Below, piece after piece: positions 136 to 5,460 of a stretch of DNA of 64,000 nucleotides. The stretch's first letter is position 1; the number at the start of each line of letters is the position of its first letter. Made by a program: the position numbers and the translations under genes. The notes below the pieces were generated by a model. That model was not told where the DNA came from. It saw nothing but the letters and a program-made list of their open reading frames with translations, and made no database searches. Where the stretch lies: the NCBI GenBank assembly GCA_015056795.1, contig SVFO01000014.1, positions 1 through 64,000 of the forward strand, given 5' to 3'. The stretch is from Lachnospiraceae bacterium (GTDB lineage: Bacteria > Bacillota > Clostridia > Lachnospirales > Lachnospiraceae).

Positions 136-321
136 TGAAGAGTTTGGCAGCTTGAGCTTGTTGTGGGAAGAAAGAAATTGGCAACTTCAAGTTTTCCGGG
201 CGAACATACAGTGGTTTATAACTGTTCGTTTTCGATAATCTGCATTCAGACAATGAAAATCTGTAATAAATTATTGCCTGATAGGAATTTTTATAAACGA
301 TGCAGTAACTTTGAGACAGCT

Positions 322-670
322 GTAACTGCCTAAAAAGGAAAATCGAGCTGTTAGGCAAGCAAGAAAGTCAGGAAATGCTTGCCTGAGAGGCAAAATGATA
401 GCTAGGCAAGAAAAAAAGAGAGAGGATGCTTGCTTGAGAAGCGAAAATGAATGGCAGGCAAGCGAAAAAGAGAGAGGATGCTTGCTTGAGAAGCGAAAAT
501 GAATGGCAGGCAAGCATGAGAGTAAATAAATGCTTGCCCAAGAGGCGGAAAGAGGAATCTGGGCAAGCGAAAAGGAAGAAAAATGCTTGCTCAAGAGGCT
601 AAAATAATTGATAGGCAAGCAAATGGGAAGAGGATGCTTGCCCAGGAAGCAAAAATGGAATCCGGGCAAG
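322..670. repeat. Array of ~7 imperfect 51-53-bp hairpin units
   Basis: Units start near 322, 375, 426, 478, 530, 583 and 634; six have GCTTGC(C/T)...(A/G)GGCAAG(C) stems with compensatory substitutions, the first is degenerate. Confidence 0.85.
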
Positions 671-672
671 CA

Positions 673-702
673 TAAAAGCCTCCGGCGATTGCCGAAGGCT
701 AT
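673..702 (-). terminator. Rho-independent terminator of the methyltransferase gene
   Basis: Minus strand AGCCTTCGGCAATCGCCGGAGGCTTTTATG. Confidence 0.65.
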
Positions 703-722
703 GGCTATGTGCATAAAATTAT

Positions 723-798
723 GCTATTCCTTTGAAATCATGCTATCTCTTTTTCATCACGCTATCTCTTTTTCATCACGCTATCTCTTTTCAATCAC
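723..798. repeat. 19-bp tandem repeat (3 clear units plus 1 degenerate) at the 3' end of the methyltransferase gene
   Basis: gctatctctttttcatcac at 742, 761 and 780; degenerate copy at 723. Confidence 0.85.
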
Positions 799-2865
799 TA
801 CAATGCAATTAGAATCCGGAAAAACCGGGACAGACAGCTCTACCTTGGGTGATAGATGCGTAACATACCCTGGCTCGAGGAAGGCGTCACAGCGAAGGAT
901 CTTCGCGCCGAGTTCCGTAAAGAACTCTCGGAACTCCTCAATGGTAAAATATCCAAATTGCTCCTGTACCTCATGGGCATAGCTCTGCTTTCCCCAGGTA
1001 TAGGTATATAAGAATTCCCGGGCGTAATTCGTGCAGGCGCGAACCTTGTTTTCCCCTTCCATGATCTCGATTTTCTTATCCTCTATATCCTTAAGTCCCT
1101 CAAAATCCCGCACAAAATTTTTGAAAAATTCCATGCCATCAGGATCCTTGAAGGTAATCTCTATCACAGAATCATCCACCTTGGATTTCACGCCGTCACG
1201 TATGATGATCCGCCCGCCCAGCTTTAAGGAGCCATAAGCATTTCGGAGCGCCGTCTTCACCGTTTCAATTTCGAATCTGCCATTTTCCGTCTCCGTATAG
1301 GAAAAGACCTCATGCAGAATGGAGGAAAAGAGAATCGCGTCAACCTTCTCTGGAAAAGCCTCCTCGGCAAAGTTGTGACGCCTTACCGTCCAATGATGCC
1401 CCTCTTCCTTCTTTTTCTTCTCCAATACCTGAAGTACATTATCCGAAATGTCCGTGCCAATAATCTGCTTCTCAGGATACCGTTCCTCCAGCAAATTAAG
1501 AAGCACGCCACCACCGCTTCCGACGTCAACCACCATCTGTCCCGTCACATAATCAATGATGGAATTCTTTGTGCTCTCCTCACTGTCATTCATGATGGAG
1601 AGATACTTGTCCTCATTGTTCAGGCGGTCAAAGGCATCCCGCCGAAACCCAAACATGTCATACAGGACCGTGATACTCTTTTCAAAGGTCAGAAGACCCG
1701 AGCGCTCCGCCTCCACGCAAAAATCAATCAGCTTTTCGCAGACCGGCGTAAACTGGAAATCCACAAGCATGGCCCTGCCAATGCGTTTTACCACCAACTC
1801 CACGTTCGAGGTCGAATTGTCTCGAACGTACTTTTCAACAATGCGCTCCTTATAGACATTCAGATGCTTTTTCCCTTGATAGTCGTAATAAAGCCCGTCG
1901 GCGAGAGGCTTAAACAATAGGTAGGTCACACCCTCCTCCATCTTCTCCAGCATCTTTCGAAGAAGCCAAATCACCTGATCGATTCCCAAATCCGCAAAGG
2001 CCGCCTGATAATACCATAGCTCATACTTCGGGAAAATCTGTGTTTCGAATAAAGTGGCAACTTCCTCAGAAGCCCCCTCCAAGCGCTCGTCCAAGCGTTT
2101 CATTCGTTCCCTTGTTGAAAATTCGGTAAGCTCCCTAACCAAGCTCGCGCGAATCATGGCCATCGCCTCATCCTTTACCTGCTCCCAAAGCTCGATCCTG
2201 ACTCCCCCAATAATGCAATGATTCAAAACGGAAAGCACTCGGTACGCCGATTCCGTCCCCAGCAGGTTTGCGACTTCGACAAGTGGTGCGTTTGCTTTCA
2301 CCAAAACTTCCCCGCGAAGCGCCTGCCCGATCAAACCATGCGTCCGGATGAGCAAAGCAACCAATTGCCTTTTTTCCTCCGAATGAAGGATCTCACGTTC
2401 CATAACATTTTTGACGGGATCTTGCCCCCAGATTCCATCTGTTTCCATATTGTCAGGTTTCAAATCATCCTGCGAATTTTCTTCCTCCGTCGCAAGCTTC
2501 TCACAATATTCAAGAAAGATCTCTGCCGACGCCAGGTTATGGACGTCCAAGGCATAGCCTTTCTTTCTCCATGCCTCGCGCTCCTTAGTGCTTCCCCCCT
2601 TCGACACTTCACTCCACTCCAAAACGGTCTTTACGATTTCATACTCTTCTACGGAAAGCTTTCCAGCCTTCCCGTCCATAGAAAGGATCGCAAGCGTCCG
2701 AAACACATAAGAAAGCGTCTCGCGACCACTCACCTGTTCAACCGCCTCCACGCGCTCCATGTTCACGGCGTAATTTTCTGTATAGTATAAGTACGAAAGC
2801 CAAGGCTTCGACTCCAAGAGCTCCGCGCCAAAACTGATTCCACTCTCTAAAGTAATCTTCATCAT
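781..2865 (-). CDS. Class I SAM-dependent methyltransferase domain protein (694 aa)
   Basis: VDVGSGGGVLLNLLEERYP...IIGTDIS motif I region; the long N-terminal region is unassigned. Confidence 0.8.
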   Translation of the reverse strand: MMKITLESGISFGAELLESKPWLSYLYYTENYAVNMERVEAVEQVSGRETLSYVFRTLAILSMDGKAGKLSVEEYEIVKTVLEWSEVSKGGSTKEREAWRKKGYALDVHNLASAEIFLEYCEKLATEEENSQDDLKPDNMETDGIWGQDPVKNVMEREILHSEEKRQLVALLIRTHGLIGQALRGEVLVKANAPLVEVANLLGTESAYRVLSVLNHCIIGGVRIELWEQVKDEAMAMIRASLVRELTEFSTRERMKRLDERLEGASEEVATLFETQIFPKYELWYYQAAFADLGIDQVIWLLRKMLEKMEEGVTYLLFKPLADGLYYDYQGKKHLNVYKERIVEKYVRDNSTSNVELVVKRIGRAMLVDFQFTPVCEKLIDFCVEAERSGLLTFEKSITVLYDMFGFRRDAFDRLNNEDKYLSIMNDSEESTKNSIIDYVTGQMVVDVGSGGGVLLNLLEERYPEKQIIGTDISDNVLQVLEKKKKEEGHHWTVRRHNFAEEAFPEKVDAILFSSILHEVFSYTETENGRFEIETVKTALRNAYGSLKLGGRIIIRDGVKSKVDDSVIEITFKDPDGMEFFKNFVRDFEGLKDIEDKKIEIMEGENKVRACTNYAREFLYTYTWGKQSYAHEVQEQFGYFTIEEFREFFTELGAKILRCDAFLEPGYVTHLSPKVELSVPVFPDSNCIVVIEKR

Positions 2866-5208: not shown

Positions 5209-5264
5209 CTCTCTTTACGTTACCTCCGGCACAAGGCATCCTCCCAATTTCCCTCGACTTGCTC

Positions 5265-5460
5265 GGGATCGCTAGCATCGCTTGCGACTGCGTGCCCTTC
5301 GGCACGTCCCTCTCTTCGTTCGGGATCGCAAGCATAGCTTGCAACTGCGTGCCCTTCGGCACGTCCCTCTCTTCGTTCGGGATCGCAAGCATAGCTTGCG
5401 ACTGCGTGCCCTTCGGCACGTCCCTCTCTTCGTTCGGGATCGCAAGCATAGCTTGCGACT
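5265..5460. repeat. 57-bp tandem repeats, 3 full units plus a partial, two hairpins per unit
   Basis: gggatcgc at 5265, 5322, 5379 and 5436; hairpins GCAAGC-ATA-GCTTGC and CGTGCC-CTTC-GGCACG. Confidence 0.9.

Follow-up and report, generated by a model that had tools for sequence, protein, structure and literature searches.

A Probable BOX/BrickBuilt-Like Intergenic Repeat Built of Tandem Palindromic Units in a Few Rumen Lachnospiraceae

Known Modular Intergenic Repeats

The pneumococcal BOX element is a modular intergenic repeat with the arrangement boxA-boxB(n)-boxC. BOX elements are transcribed and have been proposed to affect the genes co-transcribed with them (PMC3049150). BrickBuilt of Porphyromonas gingivalis consists of a leader, a tandem block and a tail, is always intergenic and multicopy, and carries defined terminal inverted repeats and bidirectional promoters (PMC4596501). 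The array described here lies in a window of 64,000 nucleotides, the whole stretch of DNA that was analysed, the start of which is the first base of a Lachnospiraceae contig (G000:C36). It resembles BOX in having outer modules around internal tandem modules that vary in number; a leader and a tail are common to arrays, and copy number differs between orthologous sites. The two also share a capacity for stem-loop RNA, a location near many unrelated genes, a narrow taxonomic range and, at some sites, apparent co-transcription (PMC3049150). No sequence likeness to BOX was recognised, the two being set apart without alignment to the BOX modules. BOX is over-represented between convergent genes (PMC3049150), whereas of the roughly 23 independent sites flanked by genes on both sides here, one is convergent, which matches the genome background of 9%. 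A strong sense bias is a further difference.

The leader, tandem block and tail of BrickBuilt, and its intergenic, multicopy nature, recur in the present family, but the units there are of 23 nt (PMC4596501) and here are palindromes of ~52 nt. The dispersed copies, and their presence or absence at the orthologous carA, gmk, rsmI and S4 loci, recall MITEs. With REP/BIME elements and their RAYT the family shares intergenic palindromes that are able to cluster in tandem. The TAACTGA direct repeats of the Beggiatoaceae are likewise intergenic tandem repeats with a preferred orientation toward the downstream start codon, but their units are of 7 nt and unstructured (PMC4679880).

Anatomy and Surroundings of the Array

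The array extends from 325 to 672 and comprises one hybrid and six complete units of ~52 nt (Table 1), in agreement with the seven units reported in the first-pass annotation. A tandem-repeat call covers 353-678, with a period of 52 and 6.3 copies. The complete units start at 376, 427, 479, 531, 584 and 635, which reproduces exactly the spacings of 51, 52, 52, 53 and 51 given earlier; these do not run in multiples of three. The period of 52 is out of codon phase, so that protein coding was rejected and the earlier reading of the array as non-coding holds. An open reading frame on the minus strand (271-714) overlaps the array because this strand is pyrimidine-rich and hence has few stop codons.

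Complete units follow the consensus TGCTTGCYYRAGARGC...YYRGGCAAGCR, succeeded by a purine-rich linker. Each consists of a 10-nt arm (TGCTTGCYYR), a loop of 17-19 nt that opens with RAGARGC, the complementary arm YRGGCAAGCR and a linker of 14-15 nt. The loop motif GAGRRGC noted previously does recur across the units of the window; in other arrays it has drifted. In the hybrid unit, a leader-type 5′ arm (ACTGCCT) is combined with an array-type 3′ arm (TTAGGCAAGC) within 325-360, and a linker comes after. A CRISPR array, which would have identical repeats and unique spacers, was rejected, as variation affects either half of the unit, each half is common to several arrays, and the linkers recur.

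Table 1. Positions of the array modules and neighbouring features in the window.
Feature	Position	Strand	Basis
Leader module; related hairpins with CAGT/ACTG arms at ~52-nt spacing	200..324 (boundaries approximate)	+	Similar leaders 5′ of arrays L082, L084, L070, L071, L068, L062 and L075
Hybrid first unit	325..375	+	Sequence; weak covariance model (CM) hit at 327-375, 16 bits
Unit 1; 5′ arm TGCTTGCCTG, 3′ arm TAGGCAAGA, linker	376..426	+	CM hit, 59 bits
Unit 2; arms TGCTTGCTTG / CAGGCAAGCG	427..478	+	CM hit, 65 bits
Unit 3; arms TGCTTGCTTG / CAGGCAAGCA	479..530	+	CM hit, 57 bits
Unit 4, double-change unit; arms TGCTTGCCCA / TGGGCAAGCG	531..583	+	CM hit, 68 bits
Unit 5; arms TGCTTGCTCA / TAGGCAAGCA, one C.A mismatch	584..634	+	CM hit, 45 bits
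Unit 6, last; arms TGCTTGCCCA / CGGGCAAGCA, one A.C mismatch	635..672	+	CM hit, 55 bits at 635-686
Probable terminator of the 781-2865 gene, between gene and array; palindrome AGCCTTCGGCAATCGCCGGAGGCT, then TTTTAT	677..700	-	Read from the sequence by eye, without a terminator-model score
Neighbour gene, 694 aa, C-terminal methyltransferase-like	781..2865	-	ORF with strong coding score; methyltransferase by VDVGSGGG motif only

The left neighbour of the array lies off the contig. The array is situated 95 nt past the 3′ end of the one neighbour gene that is known, in antisense orientation to it and apparently behind its terminator.

Family and Distribution

A DNA search of the same genome (G000) identified nine places, namely the window array and eight related arrays, and a covariance model built from 21 units found 33 units there. 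About 30 related arrays are present in four related species, with 61 model hits in G011, 32 in G018, 35 in G046 and 42 strong hits in G110. The other arrays for which the first-pass annotation had proposed a search were found, by covariance model and related-genome search, in the genome itself and in four other species. Among 138 genomes of the genus, five carry the family in strength, G058 and G071 have one hit each and the rest have none. When 85,462 species representatives were scanned for an exact pattern, the only matches were in four MAGs named Acetatifactor or uncultured Lachnospiraceae, besides a single Methanolobus match, which was taken as chance. The carriers bear these same names and come from the rumen wherever the record states a source.

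At the gathering threshold there was no Rfam match, in keeping with the earlier failure to recognise a named family; the one match at E<=1, to mir-981, was judged to be chance. The phage, plasmid and E. coli collections searched gave no match, and an element from these sources was rejected on that ground. Contigs often end in or beside arrays (C36, C59 and C55 of G000, C13 and C62 of G018 and many contigs of G110), so both the length and the number of arrays are underestimated in short-read assemblies.

Composite Structure and Turnover

The array forms the middle of a composite intergenic repeat, which often has a leader, then units, then a tail. Many arrays are preceded by a leader of other hairpins, with GACAGTG/CACTGTC arms that keep the ~52-nt spacing, and a hybrid unit like that of the window links this leader to the array. 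Several arrays have tails in common, e.g., GAAATAGGTGTGCGGT or GAAGAGTTAGTGCC, and a leader without units is present at G000:C59:29056.

Orthologous sites, for which gene names were assigned by eye from protein sequences, differ in occupancy and length. Four species have an array at the pycB-like site, where 5, 10, 26 and 18 arms were recognised, and it stays near the next gene. The ftsY, DUF1934-type, response-regulator and rfbD-like sites hold arrays common to pairs of species, with arm counts of 16 and 5 at ftsY. At the carA, gmk, rsmI and S4 loci the array occurs in one species and is missing from the others, some of which have a different ~75-nt palindrome in its place. Filled and non-filled sites differ by several unrelated insertions, which obscure the ends of the element and any target duplications; terminal inverted repeats such as those of BOX or MITEs were not recognised at these obscured ends. 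Loops and linkers are alike inside an array and differ between arrays, a pattern that reads as the mark of local amplification.

The ~75-nt palindrome, CTCGAGGGGAAGGTTTGG...CCAAACCTAGCCCCGAG, recurs intergenically (L141, L134, L144 and L087; G000 and G018), sometimes at the site of a relative's array. In G006, a non-carrier of the same genus, an unrelated unit of 52 nt that forms a hairpin (GCCCCG...CGGGGC) is present in eight copies at L180:16500-17420, nested in a long palindromic, MITE-like element.

Orientation Relative to Genes

At independent sites where the two flanking genes run in one direction (co-directional sites), the array is sense in 17 of 20 and antisense in three (p = 0.0026). 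For this count, genes were called by a simple codon-usage method, ambiguous calls were given little weight and sites were collapsed by orthology. Co-directional, divergent and convergent sites occur in proportions that match the genome background, which places the bias in the strand and not in the location. Many arrays stop 10-50 nt short of the next start codon, the interval having no promoter match, and at some sites the terminator of the upstream gene comes before the array. In the antisense array L095 the terminator of the neighbour lies between gene and array, and the same is seen by eye in the window. The plus strand averages 69% purine, and a Rho gene is present. The sense bias favours a consequence of the array at the RNA level; that the arrays are transcribed is suggested by their position.

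Folding and Pairing

The array is structured, as had been claimed. The fold of 322-690 lies far below that of shuffled sequence on both strands (z of -5.56 on the plus and -4.95 on the minus strand, with 0/100 shuffles as good), and the optimal fold is a mixture of within-unit and across-linker hairpins. The first-pass annotation also described compensatory changes in the stems. The alternatives that it quoted (T.G, T:A, C:G, G:C and A:T) do occur, but unit-by-unit compensation fails within arrays. The claimed pairs are broken in two of six units, by C.A at 584-620 and A.C at 635-671. Within the units of the window 57 of 60 arm positions are paired, against 55.5 when arms are shuffled inside the array (P = 0.15). 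Pairing of partner arms across 37 arrays shows no excess, with 1851 pairs observed and 1855 after shuffling within the array (P = 0.94).

An alignment of 150 units contains 49 double-change cells against 31 in shuffles, mostly at the outer pair, which is G:C in 78 units and A:U in 36. This pair is G:C in most genomes and A:T in G011, the arrays of which carry the switch as a group. Arm covariation exists only between arrays, as this lineage-wide change from G:C to A:T, and covariation at the array level also arises when a palindromic repeat undergoes gene conversion and amplification. Tandem palindromes are a trap in this respect, as they imitate RNA covariation without any pairing constraint on the unit.

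Arms are 83-84% Watson-Crick paired whether they are matched within the unit, across the linker or with the second unit along, so that no one hairpin stands out; the comparison of within-unit and linker hairpins yielded no preference. The ends of G011 arrays hint at the linker hairpin, but the ends of minisatellites escape homogenisation anyway. Mispairs of the G.U type exceed A.C (24 v 6 arrays, all pairs counted), a marginal excess that loses significance (p about 0.06-0.10) once the outermost pair, adjacent to a purine-rich linker, is left out. As pairing within arrays equals that of shuffled arms and all pairing modes are equal, the data support palindromy maintained across the family rather than a hairpin conserved unit by unit. 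The sense bias and the marginal G.U excess lend some independent support to a consequence in RNA.

Nature and Possible Role of the Repeat

The arrays probably belong to a small interspersed intergenic repeat of the BOX/BrickBuilt kind, restricted to a few rumen Acetatifactor-type Lachnospiraceae, in which a sense-strand string of hairpins is tolerated or used in untranslated mRNA. Copies are dispersed, differ in occupancy and number at orthologous sites, are homogenised within arrays and lie in sense orientation to co-directional neighbours. This is a new sequence family of an already known sort of repeat and not a new kind of RNA. Few modular intergenic repeats made of tandem hairpins are known, and the present family adds to them one that clearly prefers one strand. 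Against this reading count the antisense position of the window array behind the apparent terminator of its only known neighbour, the obscured ends of the element and the lack of any transposase tied to the repeat.

Recombination or slippage, favoured by the palindromes, would add and remove units, and this turnover would homogenise each array. Read-through RNA would form a string of ~10-bp hairpins with purine-rich loops between them and alternative partners for each arm. An array before a start codon or between co-transcribed genes would probably tune mRNA stability or translation modestly. Modest tuning of this type is on record for BOX, ERIC and comparable repeats. The rarity of antisense copies may be due to their pyrimidine-rich transcript, which would impede read-through, e.g., by Rho, or would have no useful structure. 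The most economical account would be that sense transcripts are harmless or mildly useful and that antisense, pyrimidine-rich transcripts are selected against. The copy-number differences at orthologous sites make the repeat a candidate device for expression variation in rumen bacteria. A bolder version seems distinctly unlikely. In it, the lineage would have converted a palindromic minisatellite into a sense-oriented string of hairpins of adjustable length within untranslated leaders, each arm having several alternative partners, and copy number would determine how strongly many unrelated genes are expressed; unrelated 52-nt arrays such as that of G006 would extend the device to the genus in general.

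There is some chance, though not a large one, that the arrays are a neutral or selfish minisatellite within a MITE-like repeat, with no host function. Palindromes would then owe their persistence to driving amplification, and the strand bias would reflect the purging of harmful antisense insertions. The narrow distribution, turnover of sites, array-level homogenisation and absence of a favoured hairpin all fit such an origin, as does the different, nested array of the non-carrier G006, and BrickBuilt is itself described as a minisatellite inside a MITE (PMC4596501). Retention of the pycB-like array in four species, close to the next gene, is harder to reconcile with neutrality, and purging alone would require strong selection to yield 17:3.

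The supposition of the first-pass annotation, a selected structured RNA in which a specific hairpin is the protein-binding unit (e.g., of a sponge or a cis-regulatory string), is quite improbable. The sense bias, the preponderance of G.U over A.C mispairs when all pairs are counted and the overall covariation among the 150 units would suit it; against these stand the absence of unit-level covariation in the window and over the 37 arrays, the loss of significance of the G.U excess once the outermost pair is removed, the free drift of loops and linkers between arrays and the lack of an Rfam match. The absence of csrA from all four carriers tested also speaks against it, and a CsrA/RsmA sponge was rejected on this count. 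Mobilisation of the units as REP elements by a resident RAYT (Y1 transposase) is hardly credible. One Y1_Tnp gene is present in each of G000, G011 and G046, but the single copy of G000 (L009, G000:C9:171124-171456) is flanked by a different palindrome of its own, GGGGACGGTTCTTTTTGAC, no array unit lies near any of the three genes, and the carrier G018, which is 99% complete, has no Y1_Tnp.

Other Repeats in the Window

At the extreme end of the contig (1-135) there is a second hairpin minisatellite, a 62-bp repeat in two and a fifth copies with the hairpin TTGTTGCATT...AATGCAACA. Between the array and the methyltransferase-like gene, a 19-bp tandem repeat, CACGCTATCTCTTTTTCAT, is present in 3.6 copies (730-798). 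A 57-bp repeat at 5263-5460 (3.5 copies, 97% identical) contains two short hairpins, GCAAGC-ATA-GCTTGC and GTGCC-CTTC-GGCAC, and pieces of it also occur in L135 of G018.
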